A stretch of DNA of 64,000 bases from Thuidium tamariscinum. Taxonomy: Eukaryota; Streptophyta; Bryopsida; Hypnales; Thuidiaceae. This document shows, piece by piece, positions 461-47,675 of the stretch. The translations under genes and the position numbers were made by a program. The notes under the pieces were generated by a model that did not search any database, was not told where the DNA came from, and saw only the letters and a program-made list of their open reading frames with translations. The stretch covers positions 124,001 through 188,000 of the forward strand of contig OX344757.2 in the NCBI GenBank assembly GCA_947034885.2. The letters run 5' to 3'. Positions within the stretch are counted from its first letter, which is position 1. Each line of letters starts with the position of its first letter.

Positions 461-731
461 TGTAGACATTCAAGTAGAATCGACTTGAATCTACATGTCA
501 TAGAATTATTTCTATTATTCTTATATTCAAATCACGTTGACTTCAATACTAATCGTTGAATCACATATTACAGGTTTAATTTTGAATACATTCAAGTAGA
601 CTCGACTTGAATCTACATTTCATAGAATTTTTCTCATTGTAAACAGAGCATTCTCATGTTCAAGTCGAATGGACCCAACTAGTGATGCCTGTTTCACTTA
701 TTGAAGAACTTTTAAGTAGATTCGACTTGAA
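461..731. repeat. Dyad cluster, locus 0
   Basis: Three clear 21 bp dyads lie at 469-489, 591-611 and 711-731, each with half-site TTCAAGTAGA (once TTTAAGTAGA), one central base, then TCGACTTGAA. Degenerate versions near 527-547 and 659 give a spacing of about 60 bp. The first site is extended by an outer TGTAGA/TCTACA pair, so the symmetry spans about 35 bp. The motif resembles that of locus A but has its own right arm (TCGACTTGAATCTAC). It probably belongs to a leader or intron of a locus lying partly outside the window. Confidence 0.75.
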
Positions 732-739
732 TCCACCTA

Positions 740-2470
740 TCACAGAATTTCAATCGTTGTAGTCCCGTCTTTGTCATGCACACGTTGTGCCCACTTAAAT
801 TCCTGATTTTCTTTCACATGTGACTTCCTCATGCGCTGAGCACAATGTACCCGGATTTTGCGGCGCATTTTCAGGGGAAGTTTCATTGAACAGTGCAAAC
901 CAGCTTCACAAGTTCACGTCAACAGAGGAGAGGCACCGAGGAGAGGCACCGAAGGAATAGAATTCAAAACGCTGCAACATGCGCAACGGAAATCTGGAGA
1001 AGCAGACAAACTGCCGCAAAGCATCGTCAACCGACTACCATGATCATGAATCTCGAATGCTAGGGTCGCAGTACAGACAGCAATCCCGCATTTGCAGAGA
1101 AATTTTTTTTCATTCCGACTGAAGCAGTACATCTAAACAACTGAAACAGCCATTGTCTCCGTGTGTCAAGCTCACATTGATTCCGTGCACATTTTCACAA
1201 ACCACAAGCATACTACAAACTCAAGAAGAACAGAGGCTGCTACCCAAACGTGAAACCTTTGCAATTATAAATCAAATTCCTGAAAGTGAAACCTGATTCA
1301 AGGGAACTACAGCACTCCGAAGGCGAGCAAACTGAACTCCAGTGTGAGCGGAAGAACAACGTGAGCGGAAGAACAACGTCGTCAGAAAAGGAGAGCGACA
1401 AGAGTTTCAGGCAGGCAGGATAGGTCTACAGAAACAAGAGTTTCATTTCGGACGGCAAAATGTGCGCGACTTTCAAACACAGATGGTCTCCCGCGGTCCC
1501 GGCCCCTAGCGCACAGGTTTTTTTAGATTATTCCTTTTCAGAAATTTCAAGGAACCTCACCGCGAAATTCAACTGAAGATTCAACTTCAATTGCATACCG
1601 CCGGGTTTTGCATCTATCAAGGATCAGAGTTCGGGTCAACAAACGGAAACTCACTCGCATTTTCCAATTCCATACAAAGCTGCTCTGATCCACGAAGGGG
1701 GAATCCACTTAGACTCCAAAATATCCAAGATGATAACAAAAGTGAGCTGGAGATTCGCCTTTACTTGCAACGTCCCGGGGCTTTGCAGGGCAGGTGATAA
1801 ATACAGAACCGTTGAAGTCGGACTGCTGCAATCTAAGATTCGTAAATATCAGGTGGCCATGGCATCGATGGCGGAGAGAAACATTGGAGCTCCCTAGACC
1901 GATGATCGAGGGACAGACGGACGGACGATCCACGTCTTCACTGATTGAATGAGTTAATATTAACTTACTGCCATGTAGGTCGAGTGAACTGGCTCCCTCG
2001 ATCCGCCACTCAGGAAAACGCTGAAATTTTTTATTTCCACTACATGAAAAACATTGCAAATTTTGAATTCACTAGTACGGAGTACTGTTTTAGAGATTGA
2101 ACCGATCGGCCATAAGATCGTGTTTGGGAAATTGATTACCGATTTAAAAAAAATCAATGTTACTCAATGAGCCGGAAACTCGGGATCCAGGCCTGGAACG
2201 GCCATTTGGAGGGCCAGCTCCCGACTATGTCAATATCGAGGCACGGCCCAGGTGCAAGTTCTCCTGATCCAATGAGAGCCGGAATGAAAATCGATAAACA
2301 TATTTAATTTTCATCTGTTATATTTGCAAATAATCAGAGGCCCCAAATTTTATCAGAGTGCTGTACAAAGTATATTAATCAAGCACAGAGTAGGGGACTT
2401 TTTTTACTGGCAACCCTAGACTAATGACTTGGAAGGGTTGAGCGAGGGGAACTAAGTTAGTTCACCTTGA
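740..2470. other. No recognisable gene
   Basis: Base composition is more balanced here than in the surrounding AT-rich DNA, and several short open frames exist on both strands up to 116 codons. None resembles a known protein and none overlaps a paralogue elsewhere in the window. The region could be a promoter or noncoding leader of a gene outside the window. I see nothing decisive. Confidence 0.4.
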
Positions 2471-2689
2471 GTCCATGACCGTTTCGGTTGTCCAAGGTTC
2501 CCCTGTGTCGGTGACCATACCAAGGGGGGTTGGACACTTGGACCTTGAAATACTATTTTTGGTCCAATGGGGATCTACGGATGAATTTTATCGGAAAGGA
2601 CCCACCTCTGGTGGATGGGGACTGAAGTTGCCAAGTAATGACGGATGCCAATTATTTAAAAACTTTTCCAAAAAAAACCCCAGGGGGGT

Positions 2690-2910
2690 GCGTTAAATGG
2701 AACCATCGAAGCCCCGCTGAAATTTTTTTTTTTTTGCATTTTTTTTTTTTTCAAATTCTGAATCAGAGACCCCAAATTAATTGAGGGGACCCTAAACATT
2801 CCAAAAAACCCAACACAAATATAAACCCCAAACCCCTTGTCAACCCCTATTAAAATGAGATTTAGACTGTGGGGCCCACTTTTGATGGTTCTATTTAACG
2901 TCTTGCCGTC
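2690..2910 (-). mobile_element. MITE copy 1 (GTTAAATRGAACCATC ends)
   Basis: The ends are inverted copies: CGTTAAATGGAACCATC on the left and the complement of CGTTAAATAGAACCATC on the right. The interior (words such as CCCCAAACCCCTTGTCAACCCC) matches the reverse complement of 10,065-10,300. At about 220 bp with no coding capacity and terminal inverted repeats, it fits a miniature inverted-repeat transposon. A target duplication could not be fixed by eye. Confidence 0.7.
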
Positions 2911-4599
2911 TTCACGCTCCCCGAGGACAGTTGGGCCGAGCGATCTGCCACGTGGGGAGAGTCCATTTGGCATGCACTAAAGGCTCATCTGGCATGCAGT
3001 TTCAGAAGTCAGTCCACAGCATGTCTTACTGCAACTTGCACCTCAAACTTGCCACCCTAAAGTCTTGGGCAACTTAAGTATATATGGTGGATTCATCCTT
3101 TGAGATAAGCATATAATTGCACAAATAAGCAATTTCGCATGATTGCCATTATTATATTGAAAAACTTTTGTGGGGTTGTCTAGATAGTCAAAAGGGGATT
3201 TCAGTTTTTCTTTGAATGCATGTTTTTGATCCACTATAAAAGTATTATAAATTTTAAAAGTGTTGATAGTAGATGATTCTAAAATTAGTCATATACTCCC
3301 AAGAATAAAATAGAGGTACCTATTTTCTATAACTTAAGCATTTCAGCTTGCAAGGTATTGAGAAATTGAGCTCAATCTGTACAAACATAAGGATGAAGAA
3401 AAATGAAAATAAAATAAAATAAAAATATTATTTCCATTAGAAGAGATTTTGGAAAATAGAGGTTTGTTTCAAACTAATTCTCTATATTGTTCTAGCAGTA
3501 GTGATGGAATGGCTAATTGCTATCAACCTTCATAAATAAAATAAATAAATAAATAGATCCTGAAATTGAAAAGAAAAAATAGAAAAAAGATTTTCAAAAG
3601 AAATTTAATTTAATTTAAAATTTAACATGTCCATTACCAACCACATCAGATTTCACCAATGGTGTAGTTTCTAGATTTTTCCACTGTATTGGACCTCACA
3701 GTCTTCTACGAAGCCAAATGTCCCCTAAGGCCATGAGTGAATATTTTATTCAACATAAATGTGGATTTTTCATTGACATCCATTCTTATTTCATAGAATT
3801 GTCTATTATTGTTAGCTTTGGCTCTTTTTTCTAAATAAAAAGGGAAGAGAGATTAGTAGATGGAAAGTTACAAACACATTTTTTTTTTCAATAAATAATA
3901 CATCCAACTATTATTGATAATAGGTACTTCTATCTTTGTAGAAATAATTTATGACAAGAATCTAAAGTAGTTGGTTTTAGAAAGCAATCACAATTACGTA
4001 AATTTGTCCAAACTACTATTGCATAGTAACTTTCATGTACTAATATTGAAGAAAAAAATATTTAGTTAAGAGTCTTGTAATGGATTCCTAGCCCAACATG
4101 TAGATAATCATGTATTAGAGAAGAATCTACCATCATCTTGTAACCTTGAACAAGATCTAAGAAAAAATAGCTAATTCTATTATACAAACAATACTTAATT
4201 GCTCATTAACGCACTAGTACTAAAGTTACCTTATATTGGTAGATACAAGTACGTGAGATATTTCTTTGCAATAATTTGTTCAAAAAAGATTCAAAAAGAT
4301 TGAAGAAAATATTTGATGGTGAATTCATTTTTAACAATGGTTGAAATTGCTACATTGTTACAAAGTCTTGGATGAGTGTTGATTAATTTTTGGATTAATG
4401 CACATGTTTTGGATGAATGTTGAAGCTTTGATCTATAAAAATGAGCTTTGTCTTGTTTCTTTAGCCAAAATAAAAGTAAAAGTAATGTTGTAGTTTTTTA
4501 ATTTGTAAGAATTTTGAAATTCTATATTTTTTATGCAAGAAAGAATGCAATGACTTTGTGTGGTGTGAGAAGTTTTGTTCTAGATACAAATAGACAGCT
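2911..4599. other. AT-rich intergenic DNA, nothing seen
   Basis: Very AT-rich sequence with homopolymer runs and short degenerate repeats. I see no coding frame, RNA gene or clear element. Confidence 0.5.
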
Positions 4600-4910
4600 T
4601 TATGCACAAAGTAAGGTGGATCTACACCCATTCTAATTTATTAAGCAATTTAGCATAGTTGGAGGACGATACTTTTTGCTAGAATTTTTTTTTTGGAATA
4701 TTGGCAATTGAAAACTATGAAGTTCTAAAAATAATAATAAAAGTTTAAAAAAAGCCGTCTATTTTTGGTGATCTTCCAAAGTAGAACTTTCTAAGGCACT
4801 TTGAACCCCTTTGTAGTAAAAGCCTACTTCATTATAATACAGATTAAAAAATCAATACTCACCAACTACAATTAAGTGTGGAAGTAATTCCAAGGTCCAT
4901 CCAAATAATT
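4600..4910. repeat. Dispersed repeat, diverged copy
   Basis: The order of words (TTTAGCATAGTTGGAGGA, AATATTGGCAATTGAAAACTATGAA, TTCTAAGGC) parallels the repeats at 1-437 and 57,745-58,140, with many substitutions and small indels. Same orientation. The match was made by eye. Confidence 0.5.
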
Positions 4911-4960
4911 AACACAATTTTACTTTTTGAACAAAAGAGGGCCTAATATGTATGGCAAAT

Positions 4961-5225
4961 CGCACAAGATATTAATTGCATAATAAACCATATAAGATAA
5001 TAATTGCATAGCAAATCGTATAAGGTTTTGTTTTTTTCGATAAATTGTATACGGACTTCTTTACACAATAAGTCATATAGGGTTTTCTTTATGTGGTAAA
5101 TCATATAGAGTCTTTTTTATATGATAAGCCGTATAGGGTTTTCTTCATACAGTAAATCTTGTACTGTTTGAATAATATAATGAACCCTGTAGGATTTTAG
5201 TTATATGAAAACCATGTAAGATACA
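4961..5225. repeat. Degenerate ~40 bp minisatellite
   Basis: The motif TAARTCRTATAGGGTTTT recurs about eight times with spacing of roughly 30-45 bp, as in ATAAGTCATATAGGGTTTTC, ATAAGCCGTATAGGGTTTTC and GTAAATCATATAGAGTC. The units are degenerate and noncoding. It is another short motif confined to one place in the window. Confidence 0.6.
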
Positions 5226-6129
5226 ACTTTTTACAATAAATTGGTAGTTTTTGAGTGGTTCCAACTTAAATAGGAAGCATCTTCAAAAATTTGATACAAA
5301 ACAATGGTAGTGAAAGCCTCTATCCTTCTAGAGAAACTCTTGTAGACAAACTCGAAAGCATAGTTTTTTTAATTTCAAATGAGAGTGCACAATTAGTGAA
5401 TATAAAAAGTAATTTCCTCCATAGACATGAATGAGCTATCACATTGAATCCTATACGTCAAATGTTTTTGGACATTTTCCACTGTGCCTTTCATGACACT
5501 TGTAGATTTAAGATTAAAATTTAAAAAAGGGTTAGCAACACTTTCCTTAATTTAAATTCAAATTCGGCAATTAGTAAACATGAAATAAAATATGGTCCTA
5601 TAAAACACATGTTAAATCTATGCTATTCGAACTTCAACCTCTATTTTCTTTTTGGCTTCTCTTCACATGAGATTCATTACAAATACATTAAAATTTTTAA
5701 AAGCGTGTACACCAAGCCCTCAGTTCTTCTATTTCAATAGATTTTAGACGATTACAAAATACAAAATGAAATATAAAAATATTAATTTATCAACTATGAC
5801 TTAGAACATGTTATAGGATATTCTAACTATTAAAAAAAATTTGACTTCTACCACAAGAAATTCATGACATTAATCATCTTCTATTCAACCAAAAAACAAG
5901 GTACTATTGCCCGATTTTCTTCAACTACAGAAAAGTAGGCATATACTTGACAAGAAACTTCCTGACGCCTTTACATTTGAATTTCCTAGCACACTCCAAC
6001 TTCTATAAAAAAGAATTTAATTTTCATTAATGTGCATTTCATGACGAAAATCCAATGTACATTTAAACCAAAAAATTTGTATCCTAACCATCATTCATTT
6101 GCACATTAGAAATGGTAATTAAACAAATA
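5226..6129. other. AT-rich intergenic DNA, nothing seen
   Basis: No coding frame or repeat structure stands out between the minisatellite and the satellite array. Confidence 0.45.
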
Positions 6130-8470
6130 ATCTCTTCAATTTACTATTCAAATAAAAGTTTATTAGGACTTTATAATGTTCACATATTATTTTTGGCTTC
6201 ATTAACCTTAAAATTCATGATCTTTCAAGGCTTGTGGTTCGGAGAGAAAAAAATGGCAAGGTACATAGTTTTTATTTCTCAATTCAAATTAGGTAATCAA
6301 ATATCATGATATTGAGATTAGTGATTGCAAATGAGTGTCCTAGGCCTTTACAACTTTCACATATGTTTTTTGTATTTATTTGACGTGGAATTTTTGACAT
6401 TTTATGAACTTTGGTTGAAAGCCAAAAAATGGCAGTGTGGTCCATATTTGTTTTCCAAATTCAAATTAGGCAATTACATGCCATGATATTGGAATTAGTA
6501 TTTGCAAATGAGTGTCCAAGGACATTACGACTTTCACATATGTTTTTTGGCTTTATTAGATGTGGAATTTTTGACAGTTCATGAACTTTGGTTGAAAGCC
6601 AAAAAATGGCAGGGTGGTCCATTTTATTTTTCGAAATACAAACTAGCTAATTAGATGTCATGATATTGAGATTAGGGCTTCCAAATGGATGTCCTAGAAT
6701 ATTAGAACTTTCACATATTTTTTTTATCTTCATTTGACGTGGAATTGGAGACATTTGAGGGATTTGGGGAGAAAGACAAAAAAAGGCAATGTTTTCCTTT
6801 TTTATTTTCCAAAGTCAAATTAGACATTTAGAGGTGATGCTATTGAAATTATTGGTTAAAATTGAGTGTCCAAGGACATTATAACTTTCACTTATGTTTT
6901 TTGGCTTTCTTTGACGTGGAATTTTTGACATTTCATGAACTTTGGTTGAAACACAAAAAAATGGCTGTGGGGTCCATATTTGTTTTCCAAATTCAAATTA
7001 GGCAATTACATGCCATGATATTGGAATTAGTATTTGCAAATGAGTGTCCAAGGACATTACGACTTTCACATATGTTTTTTGGCTTTCTTTGACGTGGAAT
7101 TTTTGACATTTCATGAACTTTGGTTGAAAGACAAAAAAAATGGCTGTGGGGTCCATTTTATTTTTCGAAATTCAAATTAGCCAATTAGATGTCATGATAT
7201 TGAGATTGGTGCTTCCAAATGGATGTTTTAGAACATTAGAACTTTCACGTATTTTTTTTATCTTCATTTGATGTGGAATTGGAGACATTTGAGGGATTTG
7301 GGGAGAAAGACAAAAAAAGGCAATGTTTTCCTTTTTTATTTTCCAAAGTCAAATTAGACATTTAGAGGTGATGCTATTGAAATTATTGGTTAAAATTGAG
7401 TGTCCAAGGACATTATAACTTTTACTTATGTTTTTTGGCTTTCTTTGACGTGGAATTTTTGACATTTCATGAACTTTGGTTGAAAGACAAAAAAATGGCT
7501 GTGGGGTCCATTTTATTTTTCGAAATTCAAATTAGCCAATTAGATGTTATGATATTGAGATTAGTGCTTCCAAATGGATGTCCTAGAACATTACAACTTT
7601 CGCATATTTTTTTTATCTTCATTTGACGTGGAATTGGAGACATTTGAGGGATTTTGGGAGAAAGACAAAAAATGGCAGTGAGGTTCTTTTTTATTTTGCA
7701 AAGTCAAATTAGACAATTAGAGGTGATGCTATTGAAATTATTTTTTAAAATTGAGTGTCCAAGGACATTATAACTTTCACTTATGTTTTTTGGCTTTCTT
7801 TGATGTGGAATTTTTGACATTTCATGAACTTTGGTTGAAAGACAAAAAAATGGCTGTGGGGTCCATTTTATTTTTCGAAATTCAAATTAGCCAATTAGAT
7901 GTTATGATATTGAGATTGGTGCTTCCAAATGGATGTTTTAGAACATTAGAACTTTCGCATATTTTTTTAATCTTCACTTGACGTGGAATTGGAGACATTT
8001 GAGGGATTTTGGGAGAAAGACAAAAAATGGCAGTGAGGTTCTTTTTTATTTTCCAAAGTCAAATTAGACATTTAGAGGTGATGCTATTGAAATTATTGGT
8101 TAAAATTGAGTGTCCAAGGACATTACAAGTTTCACATATGTTTTTTGGCTTCATTTGATTTGGAATTGTAGACATTAAGGGGATTTAGACTTCTATAAAG
8201 GAAGTGGTAGTCTAGTGATATTTTCTTTGAATATTGAGATTCGTCTTTTTTTGTTGATTTGTATTTAAGTTAGTGTTGAAAATTTAGTCTCTTGAGACAT
8301 TACATGTTTTTTCTATCTTTTTTTTACCTTTTTGTTATTTAAAGTTTAAGACACTTAAAGGATTTTGATTTATAAGGAGAAAATGGCATTGTGCTCTATT
8401 TGTTTTTCCCAAATTGAGATATGCGAATTAGAGGTTATGCTATTTAGAGAATTTTACGATGCTGGATTGT
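6130..8470. repeat. ~178 bp satellite array
   Basis: Tandem units of about 178 bp begin with GAGTGTCCAAGGACATTA or its variant GATGTCCTAGAACATTA near 6330, 6508, 6690, 6866, 7044, 7221, 7400, 7577, 7755, 7930 and 8108. There is one degenerate unit before and about two after. Two monomer types alternate or form trimers, giving higher-order units of about 355 and 534 bp. The 76-codon open frames inside are a by-product of repetition. The unit length is in the nucleosomal range typical of plant satellite DNA. Nothing here shows it is centromeric. Confidence 0.9.
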
Positions 8471-10060
8471 ATTTATTGATTGTGCACAAATTTTATCTTC
8501 TAGAATTTCCTTCAAGAGCTGTTTCTGGCTAGTTTCTTGAAATAGTGATAATTAAATGAATTTTTTAAAGTTCATGTGTTCCTAGTTTTTTGTAATTTTA
8601 AGAAAAATTAATGTCCAAGTGTAATATTCTAGAGTGGTTTAGCTTTAAGGGATTCAAATTTTTAGAATTAGTATTGAATTATTCTTAAATTTTTTATATA
8701 TTTTTCATTATTTTATGTTTTTTACATATTGACCTATATGTAGGGGATAAACAACTTAATATGTATTAGTGGACTTTAAAACGTATTTGACCAACATGTT
8801 TGGGATTAAAAATATACATACTAGGGAACTTGAAAACGTAATTGATTGACACGTGTGAGATTTATAGCATACATATTGGAAGACATTAAATCTTTTTTCA
8901 CATAGGTTAAGTATAAAGTTATTTTTTATCTTTGTATATACTTTCAAACTCAAAAATCTTTGAATGAAGTTGTTGCCCTTGCCCAATTTTTTTGAGTAGA
9001 TTAATCCAACTATCCATTTTGGAATTTCATTTAGATATCTTATATGGGCTTCGGATAGATTTAAAAAATAATAATTCACGGTCTTAGGACAGGATGAAAT
9101 TTGGTTGTAGGGCCTCCCTGCTATTGGATGAAATCCGTTCTAGGGTGGTGTTCCACCCCAAGGGGCTGAATACACGCCCATATAGTAGGGCTGCTGCTAT
9201 TGTAGGGACTAAGGTCCCAACTAAAGAACCCGTGTAAAAGGAGAGCATCGAATTTGTAATAATCATCACTCATTTTTTTAAGGGAATTATCATATGAAAA
9301 TGATGATGAAGAAACAAAAGTTCACAAAAATGGAGTTCTAGATTATTGAAAGTGAATTTTGGTATAACCAATTGATATTGCCAATCAAACAATGTTCAAT
9401 TTTTTGGGGGTTGGGGGTTGGGGTGGATGGGTTCAAATAAGGATTGCCAAAATCAATATAATTGATTTCTATATACATCCTGGAACTTGTGGGTGGACAA
9501 AAGCGGGAAAGCTAGCCAGCTCTTTATTCATTCATGGCAGGTCCTAGAGGGCTGAAAATACCACCCGGAATCTCGAGGGAGCAGGCAATTGGCACCAGCC
9601 CTATTTTTTTGGGCGATATGGTGTTAGAAAGCACCATTTAAAAAAAAATCATTTTTTTCGCCAGAAAAGTATCAAAAAAAGTAACCTTTCTTCGCCAAAA
9701 ATTTACTATATTTATAAAAACCGTGGATGAAATCGCCAAATTTAGATGATAAAGTGTATGAATATAACTATACAATATTTTTTAGTGCAAAAGTTGGATG
9801 AATGCAGAAATACAATGCTTCACCAAATTTTAAATGATCGCCATGTTGGCACTTTCTCAAAATGAAAAAAAAGGGTTGATTGGCACCCATCAGTTGGAAG
9901 CAGGGCGGAGACTCTAGCGAGGACAAAACCCCAAATTCGAGGCACCTAACTCAAAGCGGTGACCAGAGATTCACAGCTAGCAGCGGAAAGAATCTTGTGA
10001 CGCAGTGTCAGCAACTCCCGATGAATCACAAGTTCACAACACGGACTTTGAAGTGCGGGA
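8471..10060. other. Intergenic DNA, nothing firm
   Basis: AT-rich except for two more GC-balanced patches (about 9,085-9,270 and 9,530-9,620) with words like GGGGCTGAATACACGCCC. These may be remnants of elements, but I find no ends, no repeats of them elsewhere in the window and no credible coding frame. Confidence 0.4.
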
Positions 10061-10064
10061 AGGG

Positions 10065-10300
10065 CAAGACGTTAAATAGAACCATCAAAAGTGGGCCCCG
10101 CAGTCTAAATCTCATTTTACTAGGGGTTGACAGGGGGTTTGGGGTTTATATTTGTGTTGGGTTTCTTGGAATGTTCAGGAATTCCTAGCTAATTTGGGGT
10201 CTCTGATTCCGAATCTGAATTCCGAATTTGAAAAAAATAAAAAATGCAAAAAATAGAAAATTTTCGCGGGGCTTCGATGGTTCCATGTAACGTGCTCCGC
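10065..10300 (+). mobile_element. MITE copy 2 (GTTAAATRGAACCATC ends)
   Basis: Inverted ends ACGTTAAATAGAACCATC and the complement of ACGTTACATGGAACCATC bracket about 230 bp. The interior is the reverse complement of 2,690-2,910. It lies just upstream of the candidate 5' exon of locus A and so may contribute to that promoter region. Confidence 0.75.
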
Positions 10301-11062
10301 GGGAGCCCCCACCGAACACGTGTCTATTCCACACTGGCCCTCGCCATCTCCGTACAACTCGACACAGCGAACGGATAAGAAGTGGAAAAGCTGGTTCCGC
10401 AAAGCCAGAGCAGAGCTGAGCAGAGAGACAGAGCACAAGTGCATGCATGGGCCTGAACCTAGGCTCGGAAGTCGGGACCTAGTCAGCCGTGAGGGTTTGA
10501 CAAACACCGGAGAAAATGAAAACCGGACAGCCGGTCACCACAGGGTCAGGGCCGAACCCAAAGGCTGGGCCGAACAAGAAGGCCGGAAACTCTATTATTA
10601 GGGGCTCGGGGGAAGGGCGGAGGAACACCGAACCCTAGCCGCTCATTTCCTAGCTTTCGAAGTCTCAGTTTGCAAGTGAGCACCTGAGCGGGGTCGAGTT
10701 AGTCGCCGAATATGTCGAACTTCGTTTGAGGAACTGTGGTGTCAATTGTTACTGAGCTTGGAGGGTGACAAGATTAGGAAGGCGGAGAGTGTGAGTGAGT
10801 TCATGTTTGTGGATGAGGCGGTTTTGATGAAACCTTACTTCGGAGTGTGGTTGCGGCAAGTTCCTCTTTTTACGGCGACAGTGGTCGAGGTTGGTGCGTC
10901 TGCGATCCTGAGAGCGTTTGCGGCTCAAATTGTTTGTCGGAGCGTGCTTCGTTGCGTTGGGGGCGGTCGAGTTCGCGTTCTTACTGCTGGAGTTGGACGT
11001 TGCAGTGATAAGGAAGTCGTTCTTCCGTGCTCTTCGGCTGCGTTGGAGGTGACTCGCATAAG
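10301..11062 (+). promoter_or_regulatory. Candidate promoter and leader exon of locus A
   Basis: GC content rises sharply here. The stretch contains GAACCCTAGCCGC near 10,625, a motif common around plant transcription starts. A good splice donor, ATAAG followed by GTATGTG, lies at 11,063. The first coding exon of A begins just after an acceptor at 14,393, so A has a spliced leader, and this is the best placed candidate for its 5' exon. The open frames here (124 codons on +) look incidental. RNA evidence would be needed to fix the start. Confidence 0.45.
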
Positions 11063-13170: not shown

Positions 13171-13173
13171 GAA

Positions 13174-14047
13174 ATCAAGTGGCAACGACTTGAATTTCTA
13201 TATGTTTTGCTAGTTTAATGTGTCTCTCAGTAGGTTTCAAAGCAGAACCCTAAATTATCAAAACTTTATTAAATTAATAAAAAAATGTATAGGTGGCAAG
13301 GAATTAGGTCAACTCCTCAAGACAAGTACGCTTGTAAATTTAAGTTGGTACAACTTGAATTAGAAATAGCGACCAACCCTTAATCCTTATAATCCAAGGT
13401 AGAAATCTTTTTGTACATTCAAGTAGATACTACTTGAAATGCAAATATTAGTGATCTTTAAAATCCTTAAAACCTCATTAGGTAATGTTTAAACACGCTG
13501 CTTTAAGATTTAAGTAGATACTACTTAAAATGTAAAAACATATAATTTGAAACAACTATAAAACATTAGGTTGTCCATAAAATAGTTCACTTGTAGATTA
13601 AAGAATATACTACTTGAAATGTGCATAGCAGTCAATTTCTACATCTTTATAAAAAGAGTAGGTCCTAAAAAAAGCTTGTAGTTTCAAGTAGATACCACTT
13701 GAAACGTATTCATTTGTCAAAACCCTCAACATCCAAACATTAGAAAATATCTAAAAAAAGCCACTTGTAGATTCAAGTAGATACAACTTGAAACTTATTA
13801 GTCAACCCTCTCAACATCAAAACCTTAGATAATATCTACAAAGTCACTTGTAAATTCAAAAAAATACAAATTGAAACTAATTAGTCACCCCTTTCCAAAT
13901 AAAAACCTTAAAAAATATCTTAGAAAATGCACTTGTACATTTAAGTAGATACAACTTGAAACGTAATAAGTAGTCACTCTTTACAGCATTAAAACCATAG
14001 AATTTTTTTTAAAAACCATCTATAGATTCAAGTAGATACAACTTGAA
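13174..14047 (+). repeat. Leader dyad array of locus A
   Basis: Ten sites share the plan half-site TTCAAGTAGA, a short centre, then CNACTTGAA. They lie at 13,174-13,194, 13,339-13,359, 13,418-13,438, 13,509-13,529, 13,598-13,618 (degenerate), 13,683-13,703, 13,772-13,792, 13,854-13,874 (degenerate), 13,940-13,960 and 14,027-14,047. Spacing over the last eight is about 80-90 bp, and the DNA between them is loosely repeated (CACTTGTAGA before, TCAACATCAAAACCTTAGA after). The dyads are better conserved than the spacers, as expected for binding sites or for hairpins in the transcript. The array ends about 350 bp before the first coding exon. Confidence 0.85.
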
Positions 14048-31773: not shown

Positions 31774-31779
31774 TTCCAG

Positions 31780-35933: not shown

Positions 35934-35954
35934 TTCAGCTCGAGTCGAGCTAAA
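35934..35954 (+). repeat. Dyad in B intron 2
   Basis: TTCAGCTCGA, G, TCGAGCTAAA lies in the intron 35,874-36,008. This 135 bp intron is a multiple of three with no in-frame stop, so retention would keep the frame open through the dyad. Confidence 0.9.
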
Positions 35955-37145
35955 ACGTGCTTGCTGTCATTCGTGAGTTATCTAACGATTAATCTCTTTT
36001 TGCTGCAGATGAGTTGCGTCCACGTTTACGCTACTGGGCTCTTAGAAGAGTCGCCTTACTGGGAAGAGCTCTGCTTGAAGGCCATGACATTGGACAAGGC
36101 AGACTTTCTGGAAAGCGGCTATCAAAAAAAGTCGCAAGATGTTGCCCCCGGTTCGCAGTCCGAGCCTTCATCGTCGAAGAGGAAACTGCGATCCAGTCAA
36201 GACTCGCTTGGCATGAAACAGAAGCGAAGGGCGGCTCCTGTCTTCGAAGACTTTGAGGAGTTCTCGGATGATGAGGAAGACGAGCCCGACGACGATGTTG
36301 AGGAATTGGGGCTCGACGAAATAGCGACTCCAACGAGTCGCCCAGGATCAGACGTCCCCGGGTCCGTGGCGTCTTCAATGCTACCGCCAGCTACTCAAAC
36401 GCCGAAGACTCCTACCGATGGTAGTCAGCCAGAACGTAAGATGAAGAGGGACAACATGGCAATCGTCATGAAGCGGATGGAGCAGATGCAGAAGTTGCAG
36501 GTCGATCATATGAATGCGCAGAACACCCAAAATGCGCTTCAGCATAAGAAGCAGGAGCTCGCCGTAGCGCAGCTTCGGGAAGAAAGAGAGAGGGACCGTA
36601 TTCAGCTAGAGAAGGACCGCATGGAGCAAGCGAGGGTGAATGAAGCGAATTTGAAGATTCAAGAGCAAAATGCGCAGTTCATGTGGGAGCAAGCAGAGGC
36701 GAATAGGTTGGAGAGGGAGAGAGACAGGGCGGAGCGAGATAAGAGCAACCAAATTCTGGCCTACTTGTTAGACAAGGCTGGCATTGTGCCGCTGGCAGCA
36801 ATTTCTCCAGCCTCTGAACCTGCGCAGCTGCAGATATCGGGGCGCCCCTCAACATCAAACGACAGCAATGTGGCGAGTCCTCAAGTGGCCGTCAATGTCG
36901 CGCCGCCCCTCCCGATGGAATCTCCAGTCGCAACTCCTCTCCCTCCCCCTCTCGATGAGCAGTTTCCGTAGACCTCAGTCGATAGGGAGCTGAATGTCAT
37001 ACATGACGCGCGCAACCCCCTTGTGGATGACGAGTTTTCGGAGACCGCATTCGACAAGGAGCTGAATGTCATACATGAAGCGCGCAAGCTTGCCGAGCGA
37101 GAGGGAACTTCCGCGGCGGCAGATAGTGTTGTGGTTGGGCACAAC

Positions 37146-38340
37146 CCCTGGGGAAATTACTCGCGATTTTTAGAAAACTACGTGAGTTAAAAGATAGGGT
37201 CTATTTAATTCGAAAGGGATAAATTTTATATATATGTAGAACTACTATAGGGTTCTTGAAATGTTACCTATCCTATTATATATAAATTAGGCTATGTATA
37301 AACATCATTTAGTAGGAATTTTTATTAATAAATTAGCCTTTACAAATAGGGTTCATATAAAAAGTTTGTAGTACAATGAGTATAGATGTAAACAAACATT
37401 TTTAATTGATTGATAAAACTTACACAATTTAGTAAATCTAAGGATATTTTTCAGGAGATTTGTTATTATCATCAAATAATTCTAGCCTGTACATACAAAT
37501 CTTTCCTTAAGTATACCAATTATGTAACAACATGTAAGAATCTATTGTTCCAAGACAAAAGAATTGAGTTGTAAATTTACAATGAGGTTGTACTATGGAG
37601 ATTTGTGTTCACACAAAGTACCCATTAAGAAATTGGTGTAGAATGTGCAACATTCACATGAAATCTTTTTTATACTTTGACACTACAAACTCTAGATTTG
37701 CCTCGACTACTTGAACATATACATGTAAATGTTTAGGATCATCTTCTTTTTATTAGTGTTTAATAAACACTCTTTTATTTTTTGATTCTAAATTCAAAAC
37801 CATTGTAAATGCATATGTAAAAATAAAATACATATAGTCTCTATATTAGAGTAGAGGTCATATTCTTGGGTTAATCTACAATGTTTTTAGTGTGTCAATT
37901 TTTCATATTGTTCATATTATATTGCTAGTATTGGTATTTTTCTATCATAACTATATTTAATGTTTCTATGATGTTTATTATTCACCATCATATTAGGTTT
38001 TTTAGAATACATGGCCTAGAATTTAGAATATTTAAAACTATTGTTGCATTTTACATTTTTATTTGTCATTTGAAAAATTGTACTACAATACAAGTAGTGC
38101 ATATATTAAAAAAATAGTATATATGTAAGGCACTACTTTATAGTGTGTTGTAAATGGATATGAAAAAATTAGACAAATAAATTTTGTATATAAGATAGCC
38201 TAACTATAAAAACCAAATGATTAAATTTATATGGAAAAATACGGTCATTTTAATTACTAAAATGAAGATAAATAGCCCTATATTAAATACCCTCTTAACT
38301 CAGGTGTATGCTTAAAATTACAAGGAGTGATCTCCCCGGG
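37146..38340. mobile_element. 1.2 kb AT-rich TIR element in B exon 3
   Basis: Left end CCCTGGGGAAATTACTC and right end (reverse complement) CCCCGGGGAGATCACTC are inverted repeats with three mismatches. GGCACAAC is duplicated on both flanks (8 bp, 7-9 bp depending on how shared G bases are assigned). Removing the insert joins VVVGHN to LAVDAF and restores the phase-1 exon end seen in A. It is noncoding and very AT-rich. The duplication size fits hAT- or Mutator-derived nonautonomous elements, but the ends alone do not decide. Confidence 0.85.
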
Positions 38341-38454
38341 GCACAACCTGGCCGTGGATGCTTTCGAAGCGGAACTCGGGAGCGCTTCCCTTCCCACTAA
38401 AGATCCACCAGCAGGTTGTGCCCAATGACAACTTGGTTTTCCTTTCTTTGTAGT

Positions 38455-38475
38455 TTTAGCTCGATTCGAGCTAAA
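38455..38475 (+). repeat. Dyad in B intron 3
   Basis: TTTAGCTCGA, T, TCGAGCTAAA lies 40 bp after the donor at 38,415, matching the position of the A-type dyad in A intron 3. Confidence 0.9.
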
Positions 38476-38940
38476 TTGTATAGGAATGGCATAGATGCAG
38501 AGTTTTGGAGGCAGTATTTATTTTTCCATAGTGCTGAGCAATCCTGAGGAAAAAATCACTGTAGGATTGTCTGCAAATTTTGTAATCAATTTTGTATATA
38601 GGCACTCAAATTCTGAGTATGTAATATATGATTTCTCACAAACGGCAGTTCACAAACATTTGTACCGCAGGCCATATAATTGTTGACGAGTTGCATGCAT
38701 TTGTGCCCCCCCTCTCGGAATTTCCTGCGCCGGCTGCTCCAGTAAGCATTGTACATGTCGAGGGCTTGGCAGAAGGTGACAAAGAAAAATCAGAGGGAGA
38801 GCCTTCTTACCTCGAGCGTACCTCCGCAATCGCAGATGACATCAACCAACCCTCAAATTCGACTTATCAAGAGGTAGAGTTCGCTTCATTGGTCATGTCA
38901 TATAGTGTTCCCCCTTTTTTTTTAAATGGTTTATCTTCTT

Positions 38941-38983
38941 GAGCGCAACATGCCAGTTTAGCATCTGTTAACTGGCTGCGCTC
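38941..38983 (+). repeat. Unrelated hairpin in B intron 4
   Basis: GAGCGCA and CCAGTT pair with AACTGG and TGCGCTC around an 11 nt loop. It lies in the intron 38,874-39,001, which has no B-type dyad. Confidence 0.5.
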
Positions 38984-39816
38984 TCCTCCGTTTTCTAACA
39001 GGTGTCTGGCCCTCCAATAGCTCGCGGGGGGGCAACGGAAGATGTCCATCGGCCATTGAGGTCTGGGGGGGCTGTGAAATGGATAAACGTCGCCCTGGAT
39101 CTCAATGGCATTCTATGTGTCACGGAAGACTGGAAGTCAAAGGGGTCGATCAAGCAGTTCAACAACCGATCAAAACCGCACTCAGCCACCGTGGCCGCGG
39201 TTGTGGGGCCGAAAGCCGTCTATGTTCGGCCTAACTGCTCCACGTTCCTTGTGGAGCTAGGAAAGATAGCTTTTGTTTCAGTATGGAGTTCAATGAAGAA
39301 ATCCACAACTGAGGATATTTGCGATTATCTCTTTCGGGACGGGCAAAAGCCCTTCCTCGTTCTCGGTCAAGATGCGTGCAAGACAATTAAATGCAGGGAT
39401 CGCTCTGGGAGGCTGACCTCCTTTAAAGAACCCGGTACTAAAAAGGACTTGTTCTTGAAAAATTTAGACGTGCTTTTCAAGCGGGGGGGGGGTCACTGTC
39501 GATAATACTGTAATAGTGGACGACAGCCCTCGGAAGCACATCATGAACAAGTCTGAGAATGTAGTGCTTGCGGAATCATGGATTCATCGGGGGAATGGAG
39601 AGAAAGATAATTTCCTTCTCGCAACTTTACTTCCTTGGTTTCAGCAATTACACGTCCATCGCGACGTGGGCCTGAAGGTTTTCCGTGAAAATAAAAATGG
39701 AAGAATTGGACGACGTATGCTTTGCGACGAAAGGGGTCATTGTGAATATGACAAGCTTATGGAGGTCGTACGAGGATCTCACAATTTTAGTTAGAAAATC
39801 CTTGCGAGGTATGAAG

Positions 39817-39902
39817 TTCAGCTTGGATCGAGCTGATGTGTAGCTTTTGCATGTTCTGTTCTAGTCGAAATGTCCTTGCGTTTTAGCTCGGATCGAGCTA
39901 AA
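39817..39902 (+). repeat. Dyads after B exon 5
   Basis: Two B-type dyads, 39,817-39,837 (TTCAGCTTGG...GAGCTGAT) and 39,882-39,902 (TTTAGCTCGG...CGAGCTAAA), lie between the HAD exon and the last exon. The matching space in A (20,043-20,255) has none. Confidence 0.85.
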
Positions 39903-40020
39903 GAGTGTGAGCGAGGAAATATTGCTGCGTGTTCTTCAAAGACCTTCACTGCGGATTCCTTCGTGAGTTCAGTGCTTCTTGTTCATCTTCTGGTTTTGAT
40001 TCTGTCCCTTTTCGCTTCAG

Positions 40021-40656
40021 GGGGTCAGCGTTTCATCCTACCCAGGCGAAAGTATCGATCGACGTTGCCGGGCGTCCGAGGACTCCATCCTAGACTACGG
40101 GCAATACGTCATTCTTAGCACTGGGAACTTCCTCGGCTCGGCACCCACGTTAAATTCCTCCATGGACTTCTCGACAAGACCAATCGAAGATGGAGTGGTG
40201 GACAGTCCCCCAGACAGACTGCCATGGCTCCCGGTTTCGGCCTCCCCTTCGCCTCTTCGTTCGAGGGAGCCTTTGCTGTCAACAAAGGATCAGTCTCCCT
40301 TAGACAAAGGGGTCTCCAGGAAACTATATGAAGACGCAAATTATCCTCTCGAACTTCCGGGAGTTATGTCGCCGGTTCCTGATGTTAGACCTGAGCCGGT
40401 CGTTGACTACGCGTGCAGTCGGCCCCGACTTCCTCGACGGTTACCCAGGTTCCAGAGTGAGAGGATGAAGAGAAAACATGAAGGTCCTTCATGCAGTCAG
40501 TGCTCTACTCCGTCATGGGATTCGTGGGAGCTTCGGTCCTTGAAGATGCAACGGAGGGAACAAATACGGGAGGCAGGGGAGATAGCAAAAGGGTACAGCC
40601 GTGGTCCAGAAATTCTGATGGCCATGGCGAAGATGAAGAGTAAATCGCACGAGTAA
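40021..40656 (+). CDS. Locus B 3' exon, conserved C-terminal module
   Basis: A single exon following an acceptor (TTTTCGCTTCAG) in phase 0 encodes SILDYGQYV, MDFSTRPIEDGVVDSP, a Pro/Arg-rich middle and the end GYSRGPEILMAMAKMKSKSHE, then TAA. It is open throughout, unlike the upstream exons of B. Compared with A it lacks the intron between 20,603 and 20,718. It is either the final exon of B or a small separate gene; intactness while the rest of B decays would favour the latter, though chance is possible. No known domain recognised. Confidence 0.6.
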   Translation, partial: GVSVSSYPGESIDRRCRASEDSILDYGQYVILSTGNFLGSAPTLNSSMDFSTRPIEDGVVDSPPDRLPWLPVSASPSPLRSREPLLSTKDQSPLDKGVSRKLYEDANYPLELPGVMSPVPDVRPEPVVDYACSRPRLPRRLPRFQSERMKRKHEGPSCSQCSTPSWDSWELRSLKMQRREQIREAGEIAKGYSRGPEILMAMAKMKSKSHE

Positions 40657-40871
40657 AATTTTGTATATAGAAAAATATTATATAGATGAAGACAGTCAAA
40701 TGTCATTGACTGGCTACTAAATTTTGAGGCACTACTATTGTATAGCCGGGAGTTATAAGTACAGTGTAGATGATATAGTTAGTGACATTAGTGTCATGTG
40801 AAATGACAAATATATTAGAAAAATGTATTCAAATCATTCGATGCAAAACCGTAAAAAATTTTTCAAGCTAG

Positions 40872-41239
40872 GTAGTTAAAGTATCTCATCTTCCTCGACT
40901 GAGATGGCCTTGTCAGTAGAAGTTTTAGAAGATGGGTCATTGTTAGGAAGAAATTGGAAGATGAGCTTCAACGTAGATCTTTGCACAGAAATTGTAGAAA
41001 CAAAAACATCTAGACGCCACTCTAAGCAGTTCCATGAGTGGCAATTCGAACCTTTGTGTTTCGTATTGCCACTTAGGGAACTGCGGAGTGGCACTTAGAT
41101 GTTATTGAGTCTACTGTTTCTCTACGAAGAATTGCATTGAAGCTTTTCCTCCAATTTCTTCCTTTCTAACAATGGCTGGTCTTCTGAAGCTTCTACTGAC
41201 AAGCCCAACACAGTCGGGGGAGATGAGATGCTTCGACTA
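40872..41239. repeat. Foldback downstream of locus B
   Basis: Arms of about 180 nt pair around 41,055 (GAGTGGCAATTCGAA... with TATTGCCACTTA). Outer ends TAGTTAAAGTATCTCATCT and the complement of TAGTCGAAGCATCTCATCT. It aligns with the foldback at 21,235-21,607 along its full length and lies the same distance after the stop codon. Complementary open frames reading LLKLLLT on both arms are a result of the symmetry. Confidence 0.85.
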
Positions 41240-41616
41240 TCAAGAATGTGACGGTAAGCATCAATTGTACATAGTATAAGATTTTATTAGAATTAGTGGG
41301 GACATTTGTATGGAATCTAAGATTTAGGGCTTCTAGTATTGATGTGCTATTTCTATATTGAGAGAAAAACTTGTATACATGCAAAGCATCTGTAGTCTAT
41401 GCTTGTAATTTCAATGGCTGCATTGTACAAAAAGTACTTTCTATTCAGGAGATTGTGCCTATCATTACTAAACTTAAGGCCTATAATCTCGTTTCCTGTC
41501 TTATTGCACTACTTTCTTACTCCTGAATATAATTGTTATTCTTAACTTTGTAAATTTGAGTATCTGCGAATCTCTCATTTCGATAGAAAACTCTCATTTT
41601 AATGAATATGATGTTA

Positions 41617-42970: not shown

Positions 42971-43300
42971 CGTCCGCGCCCTGACTTCAAGTCCGCGCCC
43001 TGACTTCAAGTCTGCGCCCTGAAGTCCGCACCCTGATTTCAAGTCCGCGCCCTGAAGTCCACGCCCTGTCTTCCTGTCCCCGCCCAGACTGCTAGGGATT
43101 CAGGTGTGCATTTTGAACGTTGTCAAACTTCACCGCCCTCAAGTCCGCGCCCTGACTTCCCGTCTCCGCCCTGAAGTCCCCGCCCTGACTTCCCGTCCCC
43201 GCCTTGACGCCAAGGATTCAGGTGTGCATTTTGGAGGTTGTCAAAGTTCACAAATTCTCCGCCCTGAAGTCCGCGCCCTGACTTCCCGTCCCCGCCCTCA
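42971..43300. repeat. GTCCGCGCCCTGA motif cluster, left block
   Basis: The 13 bp word GTCCGCGCCCTGA and variants (GTCCCCGCCCTGA, GTCTGCGCCCTGA) recur about sixteen times with ACTTC or AGTTC spacers. Two inserts share GGATTCAGGTGTGCATTTTG. The same word fills 45,201-45,450 on the far side of a large foldback, so the two blocks may once have been continuous. Confidence 0.85.
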
Positions 43301-43419
43301 AGGGTGTCTGCAATCATGTAATATATTTTGTAGGCTAATTCTATTTAATATGAGAGGCACTTTGACTTCAATGATGAATTGGTTTTGATAGTTGAATTTA
43401 ATTTCAAGGTTTGTGATGT

Positions 43420-44863
43420 GGCTATTTTATTTTGTACAATGGGGTACAAATTAGAAAAAGTCTTTTTCGAATTTGCAGTGAGAATTTTTTTGGTATGGCC
43501 AACTTTGAAAGCCTCCCGAGAGCTCAAAAAGTAGTATTTATCCACAAAATTTTTACCACAGCATAACCTTGAAGTTAATTATATGTATGACAAATTTCAA
43601 GGCCAAAAGATTTAGGAAAGAAAAGTTATTCAAAATCTACCAAGATGGGTAGTAGTGAGAAACATTTCACTACTTTCAACTTTGACACCTTTTTAAGGAG
43701 TAAGGATTGAGTCTTGGTTCTTTTGCCGTGAAATTTTTGTCATGGAATAATCTCTATGTTCTTAATATGTTTTCGAACTATTTGAAGGTAAAAAAAGGTT
43801 TGGTGAAGAAGATATTTGAAATCTCTCAACAGGTGTAGTTCTTTGAAACTTTTGACAATTACCAATTTTGACACCCTACCAAGGGCTAAAAAATAAATTT
43901 CTTACCATGAATTTTTTTTGGTGAAGTCATCTCTATATTCATAATATATGCTACAAGTTTCAATTTAAAATGAATTTCCCCAAAAAAGATATACAAAATC
44001 TGACAAGATGTGTGGTTATGAGAATTTTTTTACTATTGCCAACTTTGACACCCTCCCAAGGGCTGAAAATTTGTCTATTTAACATGGAATTATTTGAATA
44101 AAATCAACTTTATGTTGATGTTCCAAATTTCAAGTTCAAAACACATACCCCAAAAAAGATATTCAAAATCTCTCAACATGTGTAGTTGTGAGGTTGAGTT
44201 TCTACATTCGTGACAAACCTGGCTCCACAAAATAATACTATACTAAGGACTCAAGAACTTAATCTCATAACCACACATGTTGTGAGATTTTGTATATCTT
44301 TTTTTTGGTAATTCATTTTAACTTGAAATTTGTAGCATATATTATGAACATAGAGATAAATGCAGCCAAAAAGAATTCATGGTAAGAAACCAATTTTTTA
44401 GCCCTTGGTAGGGTGTCAAAATTGGTAATTGTCAAAACTTTCAAAGAACTACACATGTTGAGAGATTTCAAATATCTTCTTCACCAAACCTTTTTTTACC
44501 TTGAAATTTTTTATACATATTAAGAACATAGAGATTATTCCATGACAAAAATTTCACGGCAAAAGAACCAAGATTCAATCCTTACTCCTAAAAAAGGTGT
44601 CAAAGTTGAAAGTAGTGAAATGTTTCTCACCACTACCCATCTTGGTAGATTTTGAATAACGTTTCTTTCCTAAATCTTTTGGCCTTGAAATTTGTCATAC
44701 ATATAATTAACTTCAAGTTTAAGCTGTGGTAAAAATTTTGTGGTTAAATACTACTTTTTGAGCTCTCGGGAGGCTTTCAAAGTTGGCCATACCAAAAAAA
44801 TTCTCACTGCGAATTCGAAAAAGACTTTTTTTATTGGTACCCCATTGTACAAAATAAAATAAC
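43420..44863. repeat. 1.44 kb foldback
   Basis: The left arm starts GGCTATTTTATTTTGTACAATGGGGTAC and the right arm ends with its reverse complement. Internal landmarks (TTTGAAAGCCTCCCGAGAGCTC, TTTGACACCCTACCAAGGGC) are mirrored. Arms are about 0.7 kb with a short unpaired centre near 44,215, and each arm is built from diverged ~150 bp units. No coding frame. The high match between arms suggests a recent origin, gene conversion or a foldback transposon. No target duplication seen. Confidence 0.9.
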
Positions 44864-45200
44864 CAATTGAAAATTTTGCATGCTAAGCCTTATTACTAAT
44901 TTTACTTTCCAAGGTTATTTCAAATAATTTAGATTGATTTTTCTATTTGTACTCATTTACATTCATTTTTTGCACCAAAAATTATAACAATTAGAAAATT
45001 GGTACAAAACAAACTGTAATTTCTCATGGTGATATAGAATTAAGAGTTTGAATTACAATAAATTTCAAATTGTTGTTTGAACACTACCCATACTCAAAAG
45101 GCTAAAATTAGTTCACATAAGAAGTTTGACCACTTCACAATTGACAAAGTCCTTAAGGGGTTACGAACCTTCTACCCTATAGAACCCATAACTCACTAAC

Positions 45201-45450
45201 CGTCCGCGCCTTGACCTTTATGTTGAGGTCCGCGCCCTAACACTAACGGTGAAGTCCGTGCCCTACCTATACGCGTCCGCGCCCTGACGTACACGTTGAA
45301 GTCCGCGCCCTACTTGTTCGAGTCCGCGCCCTGACGCTGACGGTGAAGTCCGCGCCCTACCTGTACGCGTCCGCGCCCTGACGGTGACACGATGAAGTCC
45401 GCGCCCTAACGGAGACGTTCGCGCCCTGACGAAGACGTCTGCGCCTTGGA
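45201..45450. repeat. GTCCGCGCCCTGA motif cluster, right block
   Basis: About fourteen copies of GTCCGCGCCCTGA/GTCCGCGCCCTAA in the same orientation as the left block, with spacers such as CGGTGAA and TACGC. Confidence 0.85.
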
Positions 45451-45510
45451 TCTCGCTTTCTAAGCTGACGTGTCAACCAAAAAAAATCCCACTACTTTGA
45501 AAAATGGAGC

Positions 45511-45583
45511 CGTCCGGTCCGTCCGTCCGTCCGGTCCGCCTCGCTCGTCCGTCCGGGACGTCCGGTGACCCTGACTCGTCCGT
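45511..45583. repeat. GTCCG cluster
   Basis: GTCCGGTCC, GTCCGTCCG and GACGTCCGG words fill 70 bp directly after the right GTCCGCGCCC block and a short AT-rich linker. The cluster is followed by ATGACAACCCTGATTG. Confidence 0.7.
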
Positions 45584-46100
45584 TATGACAACCCTGATTG
45601 TAGTTTAAGAGGTCACAATGCTATAAATAAACTTTGAAAATGGTAGTTATATTTAAAAACCATTCTATAAGGCAAGCTTGGTATACGCTTCAAACAAAAT
45701 TAAAGTCTATTGGAATTGTACATTATATAGGAAAAAGATTGTAGAGTACATTTTGAGAAGCCATAAATTGACCGGGGTTATGCTTGTAAAGCCCTTTCAT
45801 CCCGTTTTTTTTAATCATAAACTTTTTAGATTAGACTTGTAAACGGAGGGTTGAATGACTTCAAATCTCTTTGGCAATTTGGACACCATAGTGATTAAAC
45901 ATTATAATCTTTCAATCCATAAGTGATATATGTTTTGTTCTCCTAAATGATCTCTGATATGTCTAGTTTGAATTAGGATGGTTACATTTTAAATTTTCTT
46001 TCTTAAAGCTCATCATGAAGTAATTTTTTTCTTCACTTTAGAAATTAGAACAAATTCCTAGAAACTCCCCCAAAGGCCTTGAGCATTTAGGGGTAAAAAA

Positions 46101-46380
46101 CACCCGCGGTCGCCATCAAAGACAGAGGCGCGGTCGCCCTGCACCCGAGGTCGCCCCTAACCAGAAGTCGCCCTTCTCTTGTACCCGAGGTCGCCCTATA
46201 CCCGAAGTCGCCCTTCCATTGCACCCGCGGTCGCGAAAGAGACGCAGTTGCCCTGGATTTTTAACCCGCGGTCGCGCTTGAGCCCGATACCCGCTGTCGC
46301 CTACCCGCAGTCGCCCTAAAAATCGGATGCATGGTCTCCCTTACCAGAGATGCGGTCGTCCCACCCGTAGTCGCCCTGCC
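46101..46380. repeat. CCCGCGGTCGCCC motif cluster
   Basis: The word ACCCGNGGTCGCCC and variants (ACCCGAAGTCGCCC, GCGGTCGCC) recur about fifteen times. It is followed by a linker (CTCGCTTTCCACGTCAGCGTGG) and a second GC-rich stretch with CGACAGG and GACGTC words ending in ACAACCTTGATATGG near 46,570. The order parallels 45,201-45,605, with different words. Confidence 0.75.
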
Positions 46381-46829
46381 TCGCTTTCCACGTCAGCGTG
46401 GACAGCCTGCCACGTAGGCAAAAACTTCTTACTTCGCGGTAAAAAAATTTACCCTTGCGCGACAGGATGGGACGGGGTAGCGACAGGTTGTCTTATACGA
46501 CACGCGACGTCGGACGTCCAACACGACGCCGAAACCCAAAAATATGTCTAACAGAACAACCTTGATATGGCTTCAGTGCATAGTGCGGAATTTGCTCTTC
46601 TGAAGTTGTTTGTTCTCTGTGTTTTCAATGAGCACGTATCCATAGGATCAAGGTGGGAGGTTAGGTGTTATAGTGAACATCGATATGTATGTAATGCCTG
46701 TGTGCAACCGAAGTCTGTGATTTGTCCCCGAGAATGTCGGCGGAAATACCGGACCGTGACCTTGTCCTCCGCCGTGTACCAATTACTTTAGATACTTAGG
46801 AATCACTAGAAGTCACTGATGTTAGCTGG

Positions 46830-47675
46830 TATCATCGGCTCGACGATAGTATATGGATTTGCAATTTCCCTTGGTACATCGTAGTTATCGTCGGGTCGCT
46901 GATAATTTTTCTACTATGAATTCACTTCCTGTCGAACTTTATTGTGTTCATTTTGAGTAATTGAACTTAGTTCATCGGGTCATAATCTTGAGAAGATTTT
47001 CAGATATCACTGAAGTTCACTGTCATCTTTATAGTAATGAGTATCCTCGAGTCGAGGATAATTCCTCATCAGATCACACACTGGATTATGCGTTGTTGTC
47101 AACAAATCCTTCATGTTCTTGAGACCATCTTCGGCAGGAAGGTCACTTATGCTTATTTTTTATTTCATGGATGTAACATGTTGTAGTTGAACAAATAATG
47201 AACAGAATTTCTCGATTTGATTCACAAAGTATCATCGAGTCGACAATACTCATTAGTTTGAATTTGAGCACGAATGAAAGTGTTAGTTTTTAAGGTAGGA
47301 AGTCTTTGCAAATGGACAGCAATATTCCAATTTAACTAAGGTGATGAAATGATTTCGTATGTATCCTCGAATCGGTGATAAATGTATTCCTTGTATTGTT
47401 AATGTGGACGCAGAGAGATCGTACACCACTTTTGGTTACGGACTTGGTGATATCCGCAGTGCTTGTTTTATCATCGACTCGGTGATAACTATTTTCTTTT
47501 TGGTGATGAAGTCCTCTTCACATACGATAGAAATAATGTGACCTCTTGAATGTTCTGAGAGTGGAGTATGCTGATTGAGCGGACATCCTTTCATTCGTGA
47601 AATTTTCCTGATCGATACATGTTCTTGGATTCCTTTGATTTAGCGGATGTACTACTTATCGTTGAATCGGTGATA
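46830..47675 (+). repeat. Leader dyads of locus C
   Basis: Seven 19-21 bp dyads of plan TATCNTCGANTCGNNGATA lie at 46,830-46,848, 46,885-46,905, 47,042-47,060, 47,230-47,248, 47,362-47,380, 47,468-47,488 and 47,656-47,675. A truncated one is near 46,972. They stop about 30 bp before the likely acceptor that opens the coding region of C, as in loci A and B. Confidence 0.85.

Follow-up and report, generated by a model that had tools for sequence, protein, structure and literature searches.

Lineage-specific 21-bp dyads in the non-coding parts of giant DUF7869 transposons of the moss Thuidium tamariscinum: candidate sites of an element-encoded dimeric protein

How a transposon can escape silencing without harm to its host is a question to which the VANC proteins of the Arabidopsis VANDAL elements give one answer, namely to act on self alone. 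VANC21 is described as sitting on the introns, intergenic regions and terminal non-coding regions of VANDAL21 by way of a short motif (PMC5735166), while related VANC proteins have different families as their targets (PMC5735166, PMC10398659). VANC motifs often lie in tandem repeats, and the transposase VANA is much more conserved than VANC (PMC5735166); the VANC paper gives the VANC21 motif as nine bases, YAGTATTAY, and names the VANC domains DUF1985 and DUF287. In maize, the TnpA protein of Spm (a CACTA element) and the MURA protein of MuDR are linked to the loss of methylation from the element that encodes them (PMC10398659). Here we compare with these systems a stretch of 64,000 nucleotides from Thuidium tamariscinum (the window; contig OX344757.2, C9:124001-188000 of an assembly that was searched over 363 Mb in 19 contigs). 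The window holds parts of three DUF7869 transposons, A, B and C, whose non-coding parts carry many copies of a 21-bp dyad in lineage-specific versions.

The resemblance to the VANDAL/VANC system lies in short, lineage-specific motifs within non-coding parts of the elements, in motifs placed partly in tandem repeats (here 83-85-bp units and hybrid sites spaced 60-62 bp apart), and in a conserved transposase, here a likely one, beside a faster-changing second protein. A plant system with this pattern has been described, contrary to what the original prediction for this stretch had supposed. The systems differ in that the motif here is a 21-bp dyad rather than the 9-base VANC21 motif, and in that Pfam recognised neither a Mutator-type (MULE) transposase nor VANC domains: the moss elements encode a DUF7869 protein and a gene 1 product with no recognised domain. 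With Spm and MuDR the moss elements would share element-encoded proteins that act on their own element. CACTA elements have CACTA ends and a 3-bp target duplication, and TnpA sites are short and subterminal, whereas the ends found here read AACATCAT, the duplication is 4 bp and the dyads lie kilobases from the ends. Target duplications of 4 bp are also a trait of the Sola superfamily, which has a transposase of its own kind; the duplication here was exact in 8 of 9 insertions read, with one mismatching base in the ninth, and the Pfam label is DUF7869 only. Judged from titles and abstracts on ParB and moss, Sola, giant moss transposons, Spm and moss anti-silencing, no published description of such elements was found, and the literature searched yielded no mention of DUF7869 by name.

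All three families encode a DUF7869 protein, and A and B carry in addition gene 1 and gene 2. Sites were called in the window at no more than three mismatches to a family consensus. Seventeen are of A type: three upstream of A's minus-strand DUF7869 gene (469, 591 and 711; span 469-731), nine upstream of A gene 1 (13063, 13339, 13418, 13509, 13598, 13683, 13772, 13940 and 14027; span 13063-14047), the last four of which sit within 83-85-bp tandem units (13.67-14.05 kb), two in gene-1 intron 1 (15849 and 15914; span 15849-15934), two in intron 2 (17342 and 17430; span 17342-17450) and one in the spacer of genes 1 and 2 (18536-18556). A possible eighteenth, at 5250, has three mismatches and may be due to chance. 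The nine B-type sites comprise four upstream of B gene 1 (32508, 32575, 32753 and 32873; span 32508-32893), one in intron 1 (34470-34490, the intron being 34394-34529), one in intron 2 (35934-35954, the intron being about 35874-36008), one in the spacer of genes 1 and 2 (38455-38475) and two in the gene-2 region (39817 and 39882; span 39817-39902); the B part also holds one A-like site, at 25073. Seven C-type sites (46829, 46885, 47041, 47229, 47361, 47468 and 47656; span 46829-47676) lie upstream of the C DUF7869 frame. Each gene-1 intron of A and B holds one or two sites. Upstream of B's DUF7869 gene there are five B-type sites, as there are A-type sites upstream of A's, and within one element, A or B, the dyad type at the DUF7869 gene is identical to that at gene 1.

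The clusters were found where they had been predicted, and on recounting they stand far above shuffled sequence. Against 40 local dinucleotide shuffles of the window, 23 odd-length 21-mer dyads in which 9 or all of the 10 pairs match were observed (shuffled mean 5.95, standard deviation 2.34, maximum 13), and 81 pairs of similar dyads fell within 8 kb of each other (mean 0.18, maximum 1), so that the concern that shuffled sequence might give similar clusters does not hold. In 76 of the 81 pairs both members are family sites; another 3 arise where the left A sites are read out of register, and a 177-bp tandem array accounts for the remaining 2. The earlier description needs correction in places. 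The cluster at 0.46-0.73 kb, which had been counted as one of four loci, belongs with A to a single element and has the same arms. The GANTC-like core is found in the left A cluster and in the majority of B and C sites; around A gene 1, the majority of sites have GATAC instead.

The arms had further been thought private to each locus, yet relatives elsewhere share them. A genome search for the A/B-type pattern TTNANNTCGANTCGANNTNAA gave 507 places where the reversed control gave 2; for the C-type pattern the figures were 459 and 0. Listings covered the first 50 places for each pattern, and a comparison of coordinates by eye puts 45 of the first 50 A/B-type ones no more than 30 kb from a gene-1 match. 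Arm families are thus not confined to one locus, although they do stand beside the same gene families. Relatives were sampled as 20 loci related to B, at 10 kb each (L009-L028), 20 upstream pieces of about 1 kb (L029-L048), 7 A-lineage pieces (L057-L063) and 8 C-family pieces (L049-L056). Family dyads, again with no more than three mismatches, were present in 20 of 20, 19 of 20, 6 of 7 and 8 of 8 of these, respectively, and 353 sites were collected. The consensus is TTYAAGTWGANNCWACTTRAA in A and its copies at 88-99%, TTYAACTCGANTCGAGTTRAA in A-lineage relatives at 47-53%, TTYAGCTCGANTCGAGCTRAA in B, its kin at 63-96% and L045, ATCAGCTCGANTCGAGCTGAT in kin at 56-58%, which also have B-type sites, TTYAGCGCGANTCGCGCTRAA, a one-base variant, in L028, TTYAGGTCGANTCGACCTRAA in most kin at 41-50%, and TTATCNTCGANTCGANGATAA in the C family, whose arms are TTATCNTCGA. 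Among the kin at 41-50%, L034 partly scores as A type, and L046 and L047 mix GC and GG. Positions 5-6 of TTYA--TCGA are AG in A, GC in B and GG or AC in other lineages, and the change is mirrored on the opposite arm.

With zones taken from B coordinates, which place insertion-bearing loci only roughly, none of 167 sites in the 20 relatives fell in the gene-1 exon zones. The upstream zone received 83 sites (19 of 20 loci), the intron-1 zone 18 (18 loci), the intron-2 zone 20 (15 loci), the spacer between genes 1 and 2 17 (16 loci) and the region further right 29 (17 loci); this count omits two C-type sites from a small insertion in L015.

The versions diverge together with gene 1. On a tree of 28 exon-1 proteins of gene 1, the six dyad types need 5 changes, the minimum possible, compared with a mean of 11.5 when labels are shuffled, and none of 200 shuffles came as low as 5. 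Taken alone, the GG rows fall into more than one clade; L069 was labelled after its group, and loci known by upstream pieces alone were left out. The two arms also change in step: in the 252 sites of the TCGA-core A/B families, minus A, C and L028 types, the arms agree at positions 5-6 in 220, against a shuffled-arm mean of 116 and maximum of 136, a contrast that is inflated, since symmetric patterns were used to choose the sites and common descent links them. The genome has 59 places with a hybrid GC/GG site (control 0), 36 of which form pairs or triplets spaced 60-62 bp apart. By coordinates, hybrids lie about 9.6-12 kb upstream of 12 gene-1 copies of the 43-45% group, which should put them near the expected DUF7869 promoter. 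Half-sites are separable, exchangeable units, and this property fits a dimeric protein. The suggestion of dimeric binding proteins whose sites diverge is consistent with the 5-change minimum, the agreement of the arms and the hybrids, with the amendment that the diverging units are transposon lineages, not loci.

We propose, with a probability of roughly 0.55, that the dyads are made of half-sites at which a dimeric DNA-binding protein, encoded by the element itself, recognises its own lineage, be it for regulation or for escape from silencing. The dyad would consist of two half-sites of about 10 bp flanking one free base, and would be bound by a transposon-encoded dimer, for which the gene-1 product is the preferred candidate because gene 1 changes faster than DUF7869. 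Since a lineage-specific version is mostly shared by the sites of one element, the binder of one lineage would cover its own kind only, at the DUF7869 and gene-1 promoters, the introns and the spacers, and the bound dimer may keep those parts transcribed or unsilenced, as VANC does on VANDAL elements. The many sites of an element would then switch together, and hybrid sites look like intermediates or heterodimer targets. Both the binding and its anti-silencing outcome, like the identity of the binder, are what we infer from patterns in DNA.

Several observations weigh against this proposal. The DUF7869 protein is the sole protein seen in all three families, a C-family relative of gene 1 not having been successfully looked for. 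With gene 1, nothing in Pfam or NCBIfam passed the cut-off, PHROGs gave weak matches only (best E 0.14), and PDB gave none. The upstream site was not found in L031 or L059, and site types are mixed in some elements (L022, L025, L027, L034, L046 and L047). The 5-change result on the tree is itself weakened, in that near-copies cluster any label and the types were labelled by the analyst from the main site type. A possible NGQHS resemblance links gene 1 to ParB-type DNA-binding proteins; the idea that gene 1 is a decayed ParB-methyltransferase found no support in the Pfam, NCBIfam, PHROGs and PDB searches.

The main rival binder is the DUF7869 protein, because it is seen in all three families. 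This protein, taken as a likely transposase because it is carried by elements with inverted ends and target duplications, might itself bind the dyads, either to regulate the promoter of its own gene or to build a transposition complex. Its gene has dyads upstream in A, B and C, and some 70 bp inside the left end of A there is a narrower A-like dyad, AAATCAAGTAAAACTTGATTA. The family dyads proper, however, keep their distance from the ends: in A the gap to the nearest one is about 4.1 kb on the left and 3.3 kb on the right, in B 3.8 and 1.7 kb, and subterminal transposase sites are disfavoured as the main role on account of this distance. Many dyads, moreover, lie around and within gene 1, and DUF7869 is the more conserved of the two proteins. 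We regard binding by DUF7869 as unlikely.

Palindromes near promoters and in introns are compatible with ordinary regulation, and a family of host transcription factors could be imagined to bind them and drive the element genes. Such factors would have to account for arms that are specific to transposon lineages and track gene 1 with the minimum of changes, as well as for the proximity of 45 of the first 50 listed places to gene-1 matches; a host origin of the binder is accordingly doubtful.

Less probable by far is that the dyads work at the RNA level, as hairpins in transcripts of the element, the other half of the original prediction. Matched sites can be folded as an 8-bp stem with a 3-base loop, but at the core CpGs of 307 sites, 38 changes were pair-keeping C>T and 44 pair-breaking G>A, without excess of the wobble-keeping kind and hence with no sign of selection for RNA pairing. 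Hybrids, in which the stem is broken, are common (the 59 places above), and a hybrid site folds poorly, at -3.0 kcal/mol, where three matched sites reach -8 to -10 kcal/mol. Rfam has no match in the window, and the sites occur outside both genes, not just in introns. Finally, it is very improbable that the dyads are functionless and shared through descent and local tandem duplication, as the 13.68-14.05 kb sites in tandem units and the sites that close copies have in common by descent might suggest, for sites are kept in homologous introns although gene 1 is only 37-51% identical, and both arms change in step.

Should the self-recognition that we propose hold for the DUF7869 elements, sequence-specific recognition of self would be a general strategy, not peculiar to one Arabidopsis family, and would here employ unrelated proteins and a cleaner site with two-fold symmetry. 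We give about even odds that these giant transposons with their dimeric half-site code represent a second, independent plant origin of lineage-specific self-recognition. The many lineages, site versions and hybrids within one genome would allow a test of how specificity changes jointly in a protein and dozens of sites, and matched protein-site pairs might serve as tools.

Element A is a DNA transposon of 26,301 bp (C9:119581-145881), the right 21.9 kb of which occupies window 1-21881 on the plus strand and the left 4.4 kb of which lies outside. It was delimited by inverted end repeats (AACATCATATTCATTAATTTGGGAG) at C9:119581 and C9:145881, by paired ends of this kind 25.8-27.1 kb apart in six copies, A among them, and by close copies, which match at 97-99% over window 1-6200 and 8000-14395 and in most cases have their right boundary at 21881 or a few bases off. 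Its right inverted end repeat (21856-21881, plus strand) is followed by the target duplication CAAG. Near its left end (L071:60-130) there are two other dyads, TGGGAGTTTCAGAACCTCCCA and the narrower A-like one given above. A 177-bp tandem array at 6165-8176 is also present in other near-identical copies. A is inserted within its relative B (C9:112840-165615), whose right part spans 21882-41615 on the plus strand and contains further insertions at 28466-32084 and 37147-38338. The right inverted end repeat of B (41590-41615, plus strand) is followed by AATG, and a neighbouring tandem unit at 41775 looks to retain the uninterrupted target. A 178-bp array belonging to B runs from 21882 to 23747, with the A insertion at its left edge; an insertion in B at 29731-31446 carries minus-strand open frames that measure 386 and 184 residues from stop to stop. 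Near their right ends, A (21168-21616) and B (40805-41249) have in common a block of about 450 bp that is about 80% alike and partly self-complementary.

In its left arm, A encodes a minus-strand open frame of 958 residues with the DUF7869 domain (Pfam), left of the window, and B a homologue of at least 954 residues that is 62.6% identical (62.7% when aligned over 931 columns). Gene 1 of A, on the plus strand (14396-18515), has exons at roughly 14396-15835, 15968-17313 and 17493-18515, and its homologue in B (32942-36971, plus strand) at roughly 32942-34393, 34530-35873 and 36009-36971; these come from open frames and, for B, protein comparison, with three of the four intron borders set by eye. 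For exon 1, A and B show 37.1% identity over 469 columns, so that gene 1 is less conserved than DUF7869. Gene 2 is represented by a NIF-type (FCP1-like) phosphatase exon on the plus strand in A (19137-20042; Pfam NIF, E 1.2e-12) and B (39002-39505; E 1.2e-6), both above cut-off.

Element C (46567-51164, plus strand) belongs to a third family beside those of A and B and, by comparison with other copies, is a 5'-truncated member of this sister DUF7869 family. Its DUF7869 open frame (48402-50039, plus strand, stop to stop; Pfam) is shorter than the 992-residue frame of another copy, the longest in the family, and the family protein is 48% identical to that of A over 938 columns. No left end was found in 2.7 kb. 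The idea that C is a small one-gene element was dropped because two other copies share sequence left of the break in the window copy and because C-type places, among those listed and compared by coordinates, also lie about 4-14 kb upstream of C-type DUF7869 genes. A 254-bp insertion at L015:6873-7126, with ends that resemble the right end of C and two C-type dyads, is probably a non-autonomous relative of C. Between B and C there are GC-rich repeats of the kind AAGTCCGCGCCCTGACTTC (42972-43302, 45224-45564 and 46132-46234) and an inverted repeat of about 600 bp, 94% identical (43419-44023 and 44263-44865).

The genome search returned at least 87 matches to B gene-1 exon 1, at least 88 to that of A and at least 83 to C DUF7869, lower bounds in which split copies are counted more than once. 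Among the matches listed, contig C11 (17.5 Mb), although short, holds a large share of those to gene 1 and DUF7869, a concentration that, at a guess, resembles a heterochromatic or sex chromosome.

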